Position numbers and translations under genes: made by a program
Part shown: one piece after another, positions 16,472-23,805 of the stretch
Position numbering within the stretch: position 1 is the stretch's first letter
Layout of the letters: every line of letters begins with the position of its first letter
NCBI GenBank assembly: GCA_028820505.1
Contig: JAPPIT010000092.1
Span: forward strand, 19,166 to 63,797
DNA: 44,632 nt
Direction: 5' to 3'
From: Defluviicoccus sp.
GTDB taxonomy: Bacteria; Pseudomonadota; Alphaproteobacteria; MPNO01
Notes under the pieces: model-generated
Seen by the model: the letters and a program-made list of their open reading frames with translations, nothing else
What the model was told of the DNA's origin: nothing
Databases searched by the model: none

Positions 16472-16957
16472 ATGGATTCGCAATCCCCGCCGACCGCGGA
16501 CGATCCGCTGCACGGTTATTACATGGAGGACCTGGAGGTCGGAATGTCCGCAGTCTACGGACGCACGATCACGGACGGCGATGTCAGCCTGTTCGCGGGC
16601 CTTTGCGGCGACGACAACCCGCTCCACGTCCACGAGGAGTTCGCGTCCCGCAGCCGCTTCGAGGGCCGGATCGTGCACGGCGCGCACACCGCGAGCCTGA
16701 TTTCCGCCGTGCTCGGAACCCGCATGCCCGGCCCGGGCGCGATCTATCTCAGCCAGAACAGCCGCTTCAGGGCGCCGGTCCGGATCGGGGACACGGTGAA
16801 CGTCCGCGCGACCGTCATCGAGATCGACCGCGGCAAGAACCGGGCCACCATCTCGACCGTGTGCAGCGTCGGCGAGACGGTGGTGATCGACGGCGAAGCG
16901 CTTGTATGGGTCCCCTCGCGGGCGCAGGACCCGTCGGCAAACGGTGCGGACCGATGA
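16472..16957 (+). CDS. MaoC-family (R)-specific enoyl-CoA hydratase (PhaJ-like)
   Basis: A 161-aa hot-dog-fold hydratase that would turn trans-2-enoyl-CoA from beta-oxidation into (R)-3-hydroxyacyl-CoA, the PhaC substrate. The active-site pair D47 and H52 is in GDDNPLH, followed by the hydratase signature FEGRIVHGAHTASLIS. It starts 16 bases after the small gene and ends in an ATGA overlap with the dehalogenase. The PHA supply role is inferred from context; other MaoC enzymes act in unrelated catabolism. Confidence 0.83.
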   Translation: MDSQSPPTADDPLHGYYMEDLEVGMSAVYGRTITDGDVSLFAGLCGDDNPLHVHEEFASRSRFEGRIVHGAHTASLISAVLGTRMPGPGAIYLSQNSRFRAPVRIGDTVNVRATVIEIDRGKNRATISTVCSVGETVVIDGEALVWVPSRAQDPSANGADR

Positions 16958-17640
16958 CCGCGCCGGGCTTCGACGATATCGGCGCCTGCGTCTTCGACGC
17001 ATACGGCACGCTGTTCGACTTCAATTCTGCGGTGGATCGCTGCCGCGACAGGATCGGCGACCGGGCGGACGAGCTTTCGGCGCTCTGGCGGCAAAAGCAG
17101 CTGCAATACACCTGGCTCCGCAGCCTGATGGGACGGTTCGTCGATTTCTGGCATGTGACGGGAGAAGCGCTCGACCACTCGATGAAGGTCGTCGGGCTCG
17201 ACGATCCGGCGCTGCGTGCCGAGCTGATGCAGCTCTATCTCAGCCTCGAGCCCTTCCCGGATGCGCGGGACTGCCTGGAGCGCGTCAAGCAGGCCGGCAC
17301 CAAGACCGCGATCCTGTCCAACGGCTCGATGACGATGCTGGTCGCGGCGGTCAAGAACGCCGGCTTCGACGGGCTGATCGACGCGATCTACTCGGTCGAC
17401 CGCACGGAAATCTTCAAGCCCTACCATTCGGTGTACCAGATGCCGGTCGACGACCTGAAACTGCCGGCCCAGCGGATCTGCTTTCTCTCGGCCAACGGCT
17501 GGGACGCGCATGGCGGGGCCGCGTTCGGTTTCCGGGTGGCCTGGATCAACCGTTACGGCCAGACCGCCGAGGTCCTGCCCGGCGACATCCAGGCGGAGCT
17601 CGCCTCGCTTGCCGAGCTGCCGCCGCTGCTCGGTGACTGA
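16954..17640 (+). CDS. Haloacid dehalogenase, type II (HAD superfamily)
   Basis: A 228-aa protein with the L-2-haloacid dehalogenase pattern: nucleophile D15 in FDAYGTLFD, LWRQKQLQYTWLRSLM (substrate-binding region), S122 in LSNGS, K155 in FKPY, and the S179-x-N181-x2-D184 triad in FLSANGWDAHG. The type II set appears complete, so hydrolysis of 2-haloalkanoates is plausible. The ATG overlaps the hydratase stop by four bases and the stop overlaps the next gene by eight, so it is translated within the phaC run. A generic phosphatase is less likely given the type II-specific residues. Confidence 0.82.
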   Translation: MTAPGFDDIGACVFDAYGTLFDFNSAVDRCRDRIGDRADELSALWRQKQLQYTWLRSLMGRFVDFWHVTGEALDHSMKVVGLDDPALRAELMQLYLSLEPFPDARDCLERVKQAGTKTAILSNGSMTMLVAAVKNAGFDGLIDAIYSVDRTEIFKPYHSVYQMPVDDLKLPAQRICFLSANGWDAHGGAAFGFRVAWINRYGQTAEVLPGDIQAELASLAELPPLLGD

Positions 17641-18567: not shown

Positions 18568-18933
18568 GTGGCGGAGATTTACGTCGGCAAGCAGGACGAG
18601 TTCGGCGAGCGCGATCGGAAGATCATCGCCCAAGGCGATCTCGAGATCGGCATCTTCTTCGTGGGCGGGGAGTTCTATGCCTACGAGAACAACTGCGTCC
18701 ACCAGGGCGGGCCGGTCTGCCAGGGAAAGATCCTCGGCAGGGTCGAGGAGGTGCTGGGCGACGACAAGACATCGAAGGGATTGCGCTTCTCCGAGACCGA
18801 CATTCACATCGTCTGCCCCTGGCACGGTTACGAGTACAACATCAAGACCGGCCGCCACCCGGGCGACAGGAACGTCAGGCTCAAGCCCTACGACGTGAAG
18901 GTCGCGGACGGAGAGGTTTATGTCGTCGTCTGA
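18568..18933 (+). CDS. Rieske [2Fe-2S] ferredoxin-like protein
   Basis: A 121-aa soluble single-domain Rieske protein. Cluster ligands are C43-x-H45 (NCVHQGG) and C83-x2-H86 (CPWHGYEY), 37 residues apart. A third cysteine, C51, lies in the first loop. The start is GTG with GAGGGAGGATCCGGA just upstream. It overlaps the next gene by 14 bases and forms an operon with it and an amidohydrolase. The likely role is electron donor to an oxygenase or sensor in the same pathway; no oxygenase lies in this operon. Confidence 0.82.
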   Translation: MAEIYVGKQDEFGERDRKIIAQGDLEIGIFFVGGEFYAYENNCVHQGGPVCQGKILGRVEEVLGDDKTSKGLRFSETDIHIVCPWHGYEYNIKTGRHPGDRNVRLKPYDVKVADGEVYVVV

Positions 18934-19252
18934 CGACCGGCGCGCGCCCGATCTGGACGCGCTCGGAGAGGCGACGGCAAAGGCGCTCGCGATCGCCGAA
19001 AAGGCGCTCGACGACGGGACTACGGAGGCGGTCCCGGACGAGATGGTGCAGCGGCTGCTGACCGCGGGCACACGGCTGTTCGCCAACAAGATCGAGATGG
19101 AGGACCGGGTGTTCCTGCCCTTCGTTTCCTCCGAGTCGGCGACGGCGACCGATGTCGTGGTGACGGTGACGGAGATGCTTCACGCGGCGAACCTCAATAC
19201 GTTCGACCTCGCGATGTGGTTCCGCAGGCCGCGGCCCGGCGCGGACGACTGA
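18920..19252 (+). CDS. Uncharacterised 110-aa protein between Rieske protein and amidohydrolase
   Basis: I do not recognise this family. The protein is acidic and helix-rich with no cysteines, no signal peptide and no membrane segment; the N-terminus is rich in S and D, and the C-terminus is FRRPRPGADD. GGAGAGG precedes the ATG, which overlaps the Rieske gene by 14 bases, and the amidohydrolase begins 13 bases after the stop. Codon composition matches the neighbours. A small accessory subunit of the amidohydrolase or Rieske protein is the simplest reading, from position alone. Confidence 0.72.
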   Translation: MSSSDDRRAPDLDALGEATAKALAIAEKALDDGTTEAVPDEMVQRLLTAGTRLFANKIEMEDRVFLPFVSSESATATDVVVTVTEMLHAANLNTFDLAMWFRRPRPGADD

Positions 19253-19265
19253 AGGAGCGGAGAGG

Positions 19266-20474
19266 ATGGACAGCGGACTCGAGCCCCTGCGGGAAAACCC
19301 GGTCAGACAGATCGACGTATCCACCGACACAAGGGAGATCCTCGCGCGCGCCCGGCGACAGGCGGACGAACGCAATTTCGACGACGTCTTCATCGTCGAC
19401 ATGGATTCCCACCACACCGAGAGCGAGTCCTGGGCCGACATCATCGGCTACCTCGACGACGAGGTGATCCGCTCCCAGGCGCTCGACTATCTGCAGAACC
19501 GCACCGGCACGCCGCCCTACGGCCTCAACGGCGATCTGGCGTTGCGCTACCAGGATTGCGGCGGCCGGATTCCGCACCAGGCGGCGAGGCGCGAGACCGC
19601 CGAGCAGAACGGGCTCCACCGCGACGTGGTGCTGGCGAGGCGCGCCTACGAGTCGATGTCGATCGACAAGCAGATCGTGTTTCCGACGCCGATGCTGTTC
19701 CTCGGCATGCACCCGCAGTTCGACATGGAGCCGCTGCTGGGAAATGCCTACAACCGCTGGACCGTCGACACGCTGCTGGCGCAGGACGACAGGCTCAAGT
19801 CGATGGCGTTCCTGCCCTTCAACGACGCCGACGAGGCGCTCAAGACGGTCGAGGAGTTCGGCGATGCGCCGGGCGTCGTCGGATTCATGGTCACCTCGGT
19901 GCGCAACAAGCCGGTCCACCATAACCACTACATGAAGGTCTACCGCGCGCTTGAGGAGCGCGGCCTGCCGCTCGGGTTCCATGCCGGCTACTACTGGCAG
20001 GACCCCTCGATGATGCAGATCAACCGCTTCGCCTCGATGCACGCGCTGTCGTTCGTCTGGTGCAATGTGGTCCACTGCACCAACTGGGTGATGAACGGCC
20101 TGCCGGAGCGCTTCCCCAACCTGCCGGTCGTGTGGATCGAGAGCGGGCTCTCATGGGTGCCGTGGCTGATGCAGCGTCTCGACCACACCTACATGATGCG
20201 CACCTCGGAGGCGCCGCTCCTGAAGCGGAAGCCGAGCGAGTACATGGCGGAGATGTATTACACCTCGCAGCCGCTCGAGACCGACAACCTCAAGGCGCTG
20301 GAACTCACGTTCGAGATGACCGCAGCGAGGACCCAGCTCCTCTACGCGTCCGACTGGCCGCACTGGGACTTCGATCCGCCGGCGGTGATCTGGGACATCC
20401 CGTTCCTCGACGACGAGGCGCGCAAGAACATCCTCGGCCTCAACGCGAAGCGCATCTTCGACCTGGAGAAGTAG
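19266..20474 (+). CDS. Amidohydrolase-2 family metal-dependent hydrolase/decarboxylase
   Basis: A 402-aa TIM-barrel protein of the ACMSD-like amidohydrolase group, whose members hydrolyse or decarboxylate aromatic and dicarboxylic substrates. Likely metal-site segments are D45-MDSHH at the first strand, GFHAGYYW in the middle and YASDWPHWDFD near the end. The usual H-x-H of the first strand is replaced by D-x-S-H-H. SGLSWVPWLMQRLD is typical of the group. A GGAGAGG ribosome site precedes the ATG. The operon with a Rieske protein points to an oxidative aromatic or heterocyclic route. Confidence 0.82.
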   Translation: MDSGLEPLRENPVRQIDVSTDTREILARARRQADERNFDDVFIVDMDSHHTESESWADIIGYLDDEVIRSQALDYLQNRTGTPPYGLNGDLALRYQDCGGRIPHQAARRETAEQNGLHRDVVLARRAYESMSIDKQIVFPTPMLFLGMHPQFDMEPLLGNAYNRWTVDTLLAQDDRLKSMAFLPFNDADEALKTVEEFGDAPGVVGFMVTSVRNKPVHHNHYMKVYRALEERGLPLGFHAGYYWQDPSMMQINRFASMHALSFVWCNVVHCTNWVMNGLPERFPNLPVVWIESGLSWVPWLMQRLDHTYMMRTSEAPLLKRKPSEYMAEMYYTSQPLETDNLKALELTFEMTAARTQLLYASDWPHWDFDPPAVIWDIPFLDDEARKNILGLNAKRIFDLEK

Positions 20475-20481
20475 CGCCCGC

Positions 20482-21414
20482 CTAACGCCAGTCGTCGATC
20501 GCGTAGACGCCGGGCGTTCCGTAGCCCTCGCCCGCCGGGCGGAGCATGGCGACGGCGTTCATGAAGCTCAGATAGCCGCGCTCGCGGAGGATCCGGTACG
20601 CCTCGCGGCGGCCGGTATTGGTGCCCGCCGCGATCTCCCCGGCGTCGCGGCGCGCGGCGAGCGCCTCGCAGGCCGAGAGCAGATCGCCGAGGTCCCGCGC
20701 CGCGTCCGGACCCGGCCGTACCGCCGCGGCCTTCACGAACAGGAGCGCCGAATTGCCCTCGGTTCCGGCGCCGTGGTGGCAGACCGCGTAACCCGCAAGC
20801 CCCTCCCGGCCGTCCGCGCGCGCGAGCAGCACGGTGTCGCCCAGCCCGTGGCGCAGGACCGAGGCGATCTCGCGCGTGTGGTCGAGGCCGGACCGGACCG
20901 TGTCGGAGACTTCGCGGCAGGCGGCGCAGTCGTCGAGGTGGGTGAGAACCCGCGCGCGGCGGGGCATCGCGGCGGGCCGCACCCCGCGCCGCAACACGGC
21001 GATGGGGCGCTGAAGCTCGAAACCGAACGACTCGTAGAGCCTGACATGGCGCGTGCTCTGCGGATGGGTCAGCAGCCCGACGAATTCGTGGTCGCGCGAA
21101 TCCAGCAGATCGAGCATGGCTTCGCTGAGGCGCCGTCCGATCCCGGAGCTCCAGCGGTCCGGGTGGACGGTGAGCGGCCCGAACAGGCCGACGCTGCCCC
21201 AGCTCGTCACCACGCCCGAGCCGACGATGCCGTCTTCGGTCTCCGCGACCAGCACGCCCGACGGATCGGCGAGGTAGCGCGGCCGGACGAGCGCCCCGTC
21301 GCCGCGGAAGGAGACCGGATCGGGGAGGCCGAAAAACGTGCCGAAGGCGAGCCGGCAAACATGCTCGGCCGCCTCGAGGTCGGCCTCTTCGAGGGGCCTG
21401 ATCTCGATCTTCAT
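20482..21414 (-). CDS. Double GNAT-type acetyltransferase
   Basis: A 310-aa protein with two GNAT-like halves. The first (1-150) begins IEIRPLEEADLEAAEHVCRLAFG and carries a motif A of the form RWSSGIGRRLSEAM and a C-terminal YESFGFEL. The second half (about 165-300) has a weaker GNAT pattern ending ILRERGYLSFMNAV. A pair of cysteines (HLDDCAACREV) lies between them. The ATG overlaps the stop of the upstream hydrolase by four bases. The substrate is unknown; it is the last gene of a four-gene operon. Confidence 0.72.
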   Translation of the reverse strand: MKIEIRPLEEADLEAAEHVCRLAFGTFFGLPDPVSFRGDGALVRPRYLADPSGVLVAETEDGIVGSGVVTSWGSVGLFGPLTVHPDRWSSGIGRRLSEAMLDLLDSRDHEFVGLLTHPQSTRHVRLYESFGFELQRPIAVLRRGVRPAAMPRRARVLTHLDDCAACREVSDTVRSGLDHTREIASVLRHGLGDTVLLARADGREGLAGYAVCHHGAGTEGNSALLFVKAAAVRPGPDAARDLGDLLSACEALAARRDAGEIAAGTNTGRREAYRILRERGYLSFMNAVAMLRPAGEGYGTPGVYAIDDWR

Positions 21415-22268
21415 CCGGCGGCCCGGACGGCGACCTCCATCGCGCCTATGCCCTCGATCTCGCAGCGCATGACGTCGCCGGGCCGGACCGGGCCGACGCC
21501 CTCGGGCGTCCCGGTCATGATCACGTCGCCCGGATAGAGCGTGTAGTGGCGCGAGGCGTAGGCGATCAGCTTGCGGCAGTCGAAGATCTGGTTCGCGGTG
21601 GTCGAGTCCTGGCGCAACTCGCCGTTGACCCAGAGCCTGAGCGCGAGCGCGTCGGGGTCGTCGATTTCGTCGGCGGTGACCATCCAGGGTCCGAGCACGG
21701 AATAGCTGTCGATCGCCTTGCGCAGGCTGCGGTCCTCGCGCCCGCGCACCGTCATGTCGAGCCCGATGGCATAGCCCGCGACGTGATCGAGCGCATCGGC
21801 CTCGGAAACATCCTTGGCGGCGCGCCCCACGATCATCGCGAGCTCCAACTCGTGGTCGTTGCGCCGGTCGGTGTAGAGGAGCGCAACACCCTCGGACGGC
21901 CCGACCGGGACCGGGTTCTTGAGGAACAGCCCGTACTCGTCGATGGCGCTCGTCGTCGTCCCGAAGGTGATGCCGGGATCGGCGTTCGCCTCGTCGATAT
22001 GGGCACGGTAGTTGGCGGGCGCGCCGATCACCTTCGTCGGGTTGGCGACGGGGCTCAGCAGCGACACGCTCTCGTGGAGCTGGACGAATCCCCATTTGCG
22101 CCGTTCTTCCACGTCGGCCCGGACGGCATCGAGCGCGGCGATCAACCGGTCTCCGGGCGGCATCGGCCAGCGCCACTCGCCGGCCGCCGCGATCGACTCG
22201 GTCACGTCGATCAACTGCTCGCCCGCCACGAGGCCGAGCTTCTGGTCGTTGTAGCGGCAAAGCTTCAT
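21411..22268 (-). CDS. Fumarylacetoacetate hydrolase family protein
   Basis: A 285-aa FAH-superfamily enzyme, whose members cleave or decarboxylate 2-oxo acids such as 2-oxo-hept-3-ene-dioate, acylpyruvates or 2,4-diketo-sugar acids. The metal-site pattern is present: DHELELAMIVG (two acidic ligands near 138-140) and the downstream aspartate in IGLDMTVRG. GDVIMTGTPEGVGPV is the classic C-terminal signature. It starts nine bases after the enolase-superfamily gene. With that enzyme it could act on a dehydrated sugar acid or similar oxo acid. Confidence 0.85.
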   Translation of the reverse strand: MKLCRYNDQKLGLVAGEQLIDVTESIAAAGEWRWPMPPGDRLIAALDAVRADVEERRKWGFVQLHESVSLLSPVANPTKVIGAPANYRAHIDEANADPGITFGTTTSAIDEYGLFLKNPVPVGPSEGVALLYTDRRNDHELELAMIVGRAAKDVSEADALDHVAGYAIGLDMTVRGREDRSLRKAIDSYSVLGPWMVTADEIDDPDALALRLWVNGELRQDSTTANQIFDCRKLIAYASRHYTLYPGDVIMTGTPEGVGPVRPGDVMRCEIEGIGAMEVAVRAAG

Positions 22269-22277
22269 CGGAACGCC

Positions 22278-23366
22278 TCAGTCCTGGATGCGGTACGCCT
22301 CGCGGGCGCCGGACGCCCAGGCAAGGCCGTGGCCGGGCGCATCGCCGGGCGTCATCGCGCCATTTTCGTCCATTGCGAGGGGCGCGTCGAACAGGGGTTC
22401 GAGCAGCGGGAAATCTTCCAGCCAGCGGACGTTCGGGAGCGCACAGGCGAGATGGACGAAGAGCGCCGGCAGGAAATGGGGCGACACCGAAACGTCGTGG
22501 TACTCGGCGATCCGCGCCGCCCGCAGGCACTCGCCGATCCCGCCCATCATGGCGAGGTCGGGCTGAAGCACCGCGCAGGCGTCTGCCGAGAAATAGGGCT
22601 TGAGTTCGACGATTCCCTGCAGATGTTCGCCGGTGGCGATGGGCACCGGAGACCGGGCGGCAAGCGCGGCGTAGCCCTGGAGCGCATCCGCCGGCAGCGG
22701 CTCTTCCAGCCAGAGGGCGTCGACGGCCGCGCATTCGTTGGCCAGCCAGAGCGCGCGGGCGAGGTCGCAGCGCTCGTTCGCATCGACCATCAGGTCGACC
22801 CCCTCCGGCAGGGCGTCGGCAACCGCGCGCATCCGCGCGACATCGGCCCGGTTCCCCGCGACCCGGAGCTTGACCGCCTTGCAGCCCCGCCCGGCATAGG
22901 CAAGCGCCCGGGCGACCGCGGCGTCGGGGTCCTGGTCCGGTCGGAAGCCGCCGGACCCGTACACCGGGACCGAGCGGGGCACCCCGCCGAGCGCGGCGTA
23001 GAGCGGTACCCCGGCCGCGCGGGCGTGCAGGTCCCAAGCGGCCACGTCGACGGCCGCGATCGCGACATAGCCGATGCCGCGCCCGACACGGTTCAGCGAC
23101 GCGGCAAGGCGGCGCCAGAGCGCCTCGGGCGGCACGCAACGCTCGCCCGCCACGAACCTCGCCAGCAGGTCCTCGGCCGCCGCCTTCACGACCCCGCCGC
23201 CGCCGCCGAGCACGTAGCTGAAGCCGAGCCCGGTCTCGCCCCGGGAATCTTCCAGAGAGACGACGATGACATCCACGGCGGTGATGCCCGACCCGCCGGT
23301 CGGCCCCGCCAGCGGGTAGCGCCAGAGCTCCGCCTCGGCCCTGACAATGCATCGGGATTCCGGCAC
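22278..23366 (-). CDS. Mandelate racemase/muconate lactonizing enzyme family dehydratase or racemase
   Basis: A 362-aa enolase-superfamily enzyme. Metal ligands are D195 (VDANE), E221 (EEP) and E247 (TGEH), with a D270-H297 dyad (LQPD; SPHFLP), positions that coincide with mandelate racemase numbering. The second-strand base motif is K166-L-R168 rather than K-x-K, so one usual lysine base is an arginine. Substrates of the group are hydroxy acids and sugar acids; which one cannot be read from sequence. It starts four bases after the DUF120 gene. Confidence 0.85.
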   Translation of the reverse strand: MPESRCIVRAEAELWRYPLAGPTGGSGITAVDVIVVSLEDSRGETGLGFSYVLGGGGGVVKAAAEDLLARFVAGERCVPPEALWRRLAASLNRVGRGIGYVAIAAVDVAAWDLHARAAGVPLYAALGGVPRSVPVYGSGGFRPDQDPDAAVARALAYAGRGCKAVKLRVAGNRADVARMRAVADALPEGVDLMVDANERCDLARALWLANECAAVDALWLEEPLPADALQGYAALAARSPVPIATGEHLQGIVELKPYFSADACAVLQPDLAMMGGIGECLRAARIAEYHDVSVSPHFLPALFVHLACALPNVRWLEDFPLLEPLFDAPLAMDENGAMTPGDAPGHGLAWASGAREAYRIQD

Positions 23367-23370
23367 CGCG

Positions 23371-23805
23371 TCAGCCCCCTGCCCGTCCGAACGTCAGAGT
23401 GACCGGATCGCCGTCCTCCACGCCCAGCGCTTCGCGGAGGTCGATGTCGGCGACGATCTCCACTTGCGCGGGCGGATAGCCCTCGACCTCGGGGTAGACG
23501 ATCGCGCCGTCGATCCGCCCCTCCACCGTGACCGGGTAGCAGCGCGCGTCGCAGTCGTGCGGGCCGTCATTGGGGTTTTCCATGCGGATGCCGGGCGTTC
23601 GCTTGAGCCGCACCCAGACGGGCATGGCGTCGGGATCGTCGACAACGATGTTGAAGGTCCCGGGCCAGGGATCGATTCCCAGCCGGTCGGCGAACTGCTC
23701 GCGCGCCCATGCGAGCTGGGTGAAATGCCTGCCCTGCCCGATGCCGCTCGCGACCCGGCCCCTGATTTCTCCCGACATGACGATCGGCCCATCCCCCCGG
23801 CGCAT
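23371..23805 (-). CDS. DUF120 / archaeal CTP-dependent riboflavin kinase-like protein
   Basis: A 144-aa protein that resembles archaeal RibK throughout. It has RGRVASGIGQGRHF at 15-28 (nucleotide loop), the WPGTFNI motif with T50 and N52 corresponding to the metal-binding PGT-x-N of RibK, and the C-terminal cradle-loop pattern IVYPEVEGYPPAQVEIVADI plus LREALGVEDGDPVTL. The archaeal enzyme makes FMN from riboflavin using CTP. A bacterial copy heading a catabolic operon is unexpected; it may phosphorylate another substrate. An internal ATG at 23778 is an alternative start. Confidence 0.78.
   Translation of the reverse strand: MRRGDGPIVMSGEIRGRVASGIGQGRHFTQLAWAREQFADRLGIDPWPGTFNIVVDDPDAMPVWVRLKRTPGIRMENPNDGPHDCDARCYPVTVEGRIDGAIVYPEVEGYPPAQVEIVADIDLREALGVEDGDPVTLTFGRAGG

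Follow-up and report, generated by a model that had tools for sequence, protein, structure and literature searches.

DUF120 proteins paired with an enolase in an alphaproteobacterial order: candidate kinases with an acceptor other than riboflavin

Bacterial DUF120 proteins occur in several types of catabolic operons, and one alphaproteobacterial order has them fixed next to an enolase; they could quite plausibly be nucleotide-dependent kinases with a non-flavin acceptor. In archaea, the DUF120 family takes the role that the enzyme RibF has in bacteria. Here, we describe a member of this family from Defluviicoccus sp. (assembly GCA_028820505.1, contig JAPPIT010000092.1), encoded in a stretch of 44,632 nucleotides which is referred to as the window. 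The protein clearly belongs to the DUF120 fold family, yet it scores below the cut-offs of the curated equivalog models for the archaeal riboflavin kinase RibK. Published studies of a bacterial DUF120 protein were not found in the open-access literature, and a literature search on orf9 of the phenol cluster yielded nothing useful.

Results

Host genome and gene content of the window

The window belongs to a 5.49-Mb assembly of 228 contigs. The host is a sponge-associated bacterium, its genome being a MAG related to the sponge "Defluviicoccus". The closest genomes to it are MAGs carrying the name Defluviicoccus, among them bin129, which we infer from PMC5649159 to be an Aplysina sponge bin. The following features surround the DUF120 gene:

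23371..23805, minus strand: DUF120/CTP-dependent riboflavin-kinase-fold protein, 144 aa as read (PF01982; PDB 2p3m; 5trd_A fold)
22278..23366, minus strand: enolase of the mandelate-racemase (MR) subgroup, acid-sugar-dehydratase type by similarity (PF13378, 181.6 bits; best PDB match 2og9)
21411..22268, minus strand: fumarylacetoacetate-hydrolase (FAH) family protein, maleylpyruvate hydrolase/diketo-deoxy-acid hydrolase-like (PF01557, 173 bits; 6jvv, 6.8e-54)
20482..21357 (start approximate), minus strand: GNAT acetyltransferase-domain protein (PF13508, 40.7 bits), kept in the genus and ending the minus-strand run
19266..20474, plus strand: Amidohydrolase-2 family protein, convergent (PF04909, 87 bits), conserved with the DUF120-enolase pair in families f1, f239 and f240
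18920..19252, plus strand: conserved 110-aa protein between the Rieske and amidohydrolase genes, no Pfam match
18568..18933, plus strand: small Rieske [2Fe-2S] protein (PF00355, 43.7 bits), in a conserved block with the amidohydrolase
16954..17640, plus strand: L-2-haloacid-dehalogenase-type HAD protein (2no4, 6.6e-56), near the DUF120-enolase pair in families f1, f239 and f2

The plus-strand genes between 16954 and 20474, comprising the L-2-haloacid dehalogenase, an alpha/beta hydrolase, the Rieske protein, the 110-aa protein and the amidohydrolase, are an uncharacterised catabolic module which is found again in a large part of the order and, in part, in genome G303. The HAD protein was considered as a phosphatase reversing the kinase reaction and rejected, since it is an L-2-haloacid dehalogenase and shows no similarity to the HAD domain of a fusion protein from Natrinema described below. 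Also rejected was an L-fucose/L-rhamnose-type pathway for the amidohydrolase, the enolase and the FAH-family protein: for the amidohydrolase, 8sm7 and related chains of the Amidohydrolase-2 family head the matches and decarboxylases come further down, and the enolase lies far below all equivalog cut-offs.

The enolase aligns with the acid-sugar dehydratases of the MR subgroup (talarate/galactarate, galactonate, rhamnonate) at the metal ligands (D/E/E) and the His/Asp dyad, but it differs from them in carrying K-x-R in place of K-x-K. The nearest named family is talarate/galactarate dehydratase (NCBIfam TalGalacDh), for which 216 bits were obtained against an equivalog cut-off of 500. Judged from its sequence, this enolase would appear to act on a sugar acid or an alpha-hydroxy acid.

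Family membership and fold of the DUF120 protein

The 144-codon open reading frame matches PF01982 with 102.7 bits (1.6e-29; cut-off 25) over positions 1-120 of the 121 in the profile, and RibK of Methanocaldococcus jannaschii (MjRibK, 2p3m) with 6e-12, T50 and N52 being aligned with T43 and N45 of MjRibK. The original prediction had proposed a RibK/DUF120 protein over the full length of this frame and had named the PF01982 search beforehand as a possible refutation; the match is clear, and the motifs on which the proposal was based (GIGQG, PGT-x-N, IVYPEVEGYPPAQVEIVAD and LREALGVEDGDPV) are all found in the frame. The frame itself is real, whereas the length of 144 aa probably has to be revised: homologues in the alignment begin at Met10 (MSGEIRG..., position 23778), and the true gene is therefore probably 23371-23778, encoding 135 aa. 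With dN/dS values of 0.06-0.19 against its congeners, the gene is under purifying selection and is not a chance reading frame.

An AlphaFold model (mean pLDDT 88) has the cradle-loop barrel of RibK, as anticipated. Its best matches are the solved archaeal RibK and RbkR structures at Z 16-19, and the next unrelated fold follows at Z 6.0. The best match to the kinase domain, with Z 18.6 over 136 residues, is RbkR, the HTH-riboflavin kinase of Thermoplasma acidophilum and the haloarchaea (3cta/5trd; 5trd_A). In contrast to RbkR, the window protein begins at the DUF120 domain, and no HTH domain was matched in its Pfam domain content; since the N-terminal HTH is missing, it is by domain content not a candidate DNA-binding regulator. 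With MjRibK (MJ0056; 2vbu/2vbv/2vbs/2p3m; Z 16.7 for 2vbv) it has in common the single-domain size, the fold (Z 12-17), the glycine loop, the GTxN motif and the C-terminal E and R. It differs from MjRibK in being only about 30% identical, in belonging to a separate clade, in the replacement of K98, T99 and H101, and in its bacterial host, which has its own RibF and in which the gene forms an operon with an enolase gene.

A bacterial subfamily with exchanged residues

Canonical archaeal RibKs and all bacterial DUF120 proteins were found on opposite sides of a branch with 99/95 support and, in a second tree, 100/99. The designation "archaeal-type RibK" given to the window protein at the outset thus holds for fold and family, but "archaeal-type" is loose, since the bacterial clade is separate.

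The residues G21, G23, G49, T50, N52, P105, E116 and R124 are invariant in all 33 bacterial copies, and a further set of invariant residues (F28, W33, C85 and Y110) is peculiar to them. In contrast, none of the 33 bacterial copies retains K/R98, T99 or H101 of MjRibK; they have V/I/L/M, varying residues and Y there, respectively (V107, E108 and Y110 in the window protein), in a comparison of the 33 bacterial with only nine archaeal sequences, of which the archaeal L117 itself carries D/V/Y at these sites. By the annotation of MjRibK, T99 and E107 presumably contact FMN, and K/R98, T99 and H101 are taken here as the putative flavin side. The window protein lacks these archaeal-conserved residues, and it obtained 64.3 bits against a required 168 and 86.5 against a required 279 with the RibK equivalog models NCBIfam NF040694/NF010762. 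The simplest reading is that the nucleotide half of the kinase would be unchanged and its acceptor half altered, and the loss on the presumed flavin side lends support to the earlier suggestion that the protein phosphorylates something other than riboflavin.

Distribution of PF01982

Members of PF01982 were detected in 24 of the 27 genomes of the order of the host, in 13 of the 385 genomes sampled from the class and in two of the 398 sampled from the phylum, one of which is that of the window. In a second alphaproteobacterial family (f114), 10/11 genomes carry the domain. From these counts, DUF120 is rare in the phylum and fixed in particular lineages. Spread by viruses or phages was rejected: no DUF120 protein was present in the phage records searched, none was confirmed in viral contigs, and no viral fold match below an E-value of 0.001 was obtained.

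Pairing with an enolase across the order

Four bases separate the stop of the DUF120 gene from the GTG start of the enolase gene (23366), and the FAH gene starts nine bases after the enolase stop. The neighbours and the four-base gap are as originally described, the enolase being recognised by MR_MLE_C (181.6 bits) and the third gene by FAH (173 bits). In all 22 intact loci of the order, which represent four families, the DUF120 gene is located immediately upstream of the same orthologous MR-type enolase gene on the same strand, with a spacing of -8 to +21 nt and 53-91% identity among the enolases. The enolase is present in 25/27 genomes of the order. The only one with the enolase but without a detectable DUF120 gene (G761) has a contig edge 50 nt upstream of the enolase, and in another (G756) the DUF120 copies contain stops or broken frames and one enolase copy has decayed as well. 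The two proteins diverge in parallel (Mantel r 0.90 between their pairwise distances), although shared vertical descent alone would give the same result.

The remaining neighbours at the order locus, namely FAH, a CaiB-type CoA transferase, amidohydrolase, Rieske protein, L-2-haloacid dehalogenase and PALP, are common, but none is constant; DUF120 is thus tied specifically to the enolase. The functional tie to the enolase that had been suspected from the single locus therefore extends over the order. A pathway intermediate as the substrate, which had also been proposed, did not find such backing: the FAH gene is adjacent in part of the order only, and the same residue signature occurs in unrelated operons. 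Among the loci of the order compared, no constant FMN enzyme or other flavoenzyme was found.

Genome G303 harbors a related gene set (enolase 46%, amidohydrolase 57% and Rieske protein 55% identical) without a DUF120 gene, so that the kinase would be dispensable for some version of the pathway; this locus is a natural comparison for the contribution of the kinase. A 215-aa reading frame upstream of the G303 enolase was considered as a substitute kinase and rejected as spurious, as it is an artefact lying antisense to the Rieske gene. Besides the enolase, this G303 locus (L094) comprises homologues of the Rieske protein, the 110-aa protein and the amidohydrolase together with TauD, CaiB, FAH, HpcH aldolase and PPK2 genes.

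Redundancy with RibF

Bacterial RibF (FAD synthetase with the PF01687 flavokinase domain) phosphorylates riboflavin, the activity expected if the DUF120 gene made FMN, and it belongs to an unrelated protein family. The host genome encodes, separately from the DUF120 gene, a complete bifunctional RibF of 326 aa with the PTAN motif, as the suggested redundancy required, and a complete RibF with this flavokinase motif is present in all five genomes of the genus. Therefore, ordinary FMN synthesis does not depend on the DUF120 protein.

DUF120 genes in other contexts

Other bacterial DUF120 copies in the neighbourhoods surveyed are located in other catabolic operons, either with TauD, GST and RdhA-like genes or with UbiX-UbiD. 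In f114, the gene lies between a TAXI/NMT1-type binding protein and either a short reductive-dehalogenase-like Fe-S protein or an OCD-family protein and GST; alternatively, it directly precedes a TauD-type dioxygenase. The conserved f114 operon (L106-L111, L044-L047) contains two or three VOC/glyoxalase genes, TctC- and TAXI-type binding proteins, a D-2-hydroxyacid dehydrogenase, SnoaL, DUF120, the short RdhA-like Fe-S protein, the OCD-family protein and GST, and it looks like an operon for uptake and breakdown of some compound, perhaps a halogenated one.

On plasmid pAZKH of Azoarcus sp. KH32C, the DUF120 gene AZKH_RS23515 (L002:11977-12414) belongs to a phenylphosphate carboxylase cluster, where it overlaps ubiX and a NUDIX gene comes after it. 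Its product resembles the window protein in the bacterial signature (W, C, Y-P), with 39% identity and likewise in a catabolic operon, but its partners are ubiX/ubiD and the NUDIX hydrolase instead of an enolase. UbiD-type enzymes depend on prenyl-FMN, and DUF120, ubiX and NUDIX possibly form a module for its supply. Since the bacterial signature recurs in such unrelated operons, a single acceptor may be shared by many pathways instead of being an intermediate of one.

In the haloarchaeon Natrinema gelatinilyticum, plasmid NZ_CP100757.1 encodes a 307-aa protein (L117:6019-6942) in which a phosphoglycolate-phosphatase-like HAD domain is fused to a DUF120 domain that is divergent and has D and Y in place of T99 and H101. 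The fusion resembles the plant riboflavin kinase/FMN hydrolase with the order of the two parts reversed. Upstream of the gene is a nitroreductase-family reading frame, and moeA-like and mobA-like genes lie downstream of it. Extra haloarchaeal ribK copies (L003, L004, L006, L021), three of them on plasmids, have ribB close downstream and likely represent a second FMN supply; those of L004 and L006 are near LLM-class flavin-dependent oxidoreductases.

Apart from these, genus g138 (L049, L050) has a very divergent DUF120 protein of about 28-31 bits, which is a third DUF120 subgroup; the copy of L050 adjoins formate-tetrahydrofolate ligase. Another divergent subgroup with a shortened middle region (L048:9581-10144, L051:9261-9815) was observed beside a phage integrase (L048) and bacA (L051).

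Discussion

In our judgement, there is an even chance that the bacterial DUF120 protein is a catalytically intact kinase which serves catabolic operons and whose acceptor is not riboflavin. In the window protein, T50/N52 would bind Mg2+, and CTP or a different nucleotide would donate the phosphate to a hydroxyl group on some small molecule that is not riboflavin; the protein would work together with the enolase encoded four bases downstream. A non-riboflavin acceptor is favoured because of the redundancy with RibF, the pairing with the enolase in loci that lack a constant flavoenzyme, and the residue exchange. Against it, one signature in very different operons is easier to explain by a shared acceptor, for instance a flavin, than by separate intermediates, and the Azoarcus gene overlaps the gene of an FMN-using enzyme, UbiX.

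The protein may instead be a true CTP- or ATP-dependent riboflavin kinase with a flavin site remodelled in bacteria, providing operon-linked, RibF-independent FMN for catabolic flavin steps; we regard this as a serious but somewhat less probable explanation. Riboflavin is favoured by the shared signature over unrelated operons, which suggests a single acceptor, by the ubiX neighbour with its phenylphosphate carboxylase cluster, and by the fusion of DUF120 to a HAD phosphatase as in the plant enzyme. Fold and core are, moreover, the same as in proven riboflavin kinases, haloarchaeal plasmids carry extra ribK genes mostly beside ribB and several near flavin-dependent oxidoreductases, and within the genus an FMN-type nitronate monooxygenase is encoded upstream. 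However, the constant partner in the order is an enolase, an enzyme that requires Mg2+ but not flavin; a complete RibF is already at hand; and the exchange of T99, H101 and K/R98 in every bacterial copy and the missed RibK cut-offs speak against riboflavin as well. Kinase catalysis as such is likely, whether the acceptor is riboflavin or not.

It is unlikely that the protein has ceased to be a kinase and acts as a nucleotide- or metabolite-binding regulator or as an accessory subunit of the enolase pathway. Archaeal DUF120 proteins do double as regulators (RbkR; PMC8305020), and the tight, nearly fixed spacing to the enolase could mean a protein complex, but the metal and nucleotide core residues are all invariant and the bacterial protein has no HTH domain. 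Contamination or a chance neighbour in the binned genome, conceivable for an assembly in so many fragments, can be dismissed, as four other congeners share the locus and it recurs across the order, G305, a single-contig genome, being one example.

What distinguishes the system is that an order of RibF-bearing bacteria has DUF120 throughout, always joined to one enolase and with the presumed flavin-pocket residues exchanged. Two directly testable claims follow, a new kinase substrate for the DUF120 fold or an FMN supply dedicated to catabolic operons. Caution is also advisable in transferring the name "CTP-dependent riboflavin kinase" to bacterial DUF120 members. If the preferred reading of a kinase with a non-riboflavin acceptor is true, it would give the archaeal riboflavin-kinase fold a new enzymatic role.
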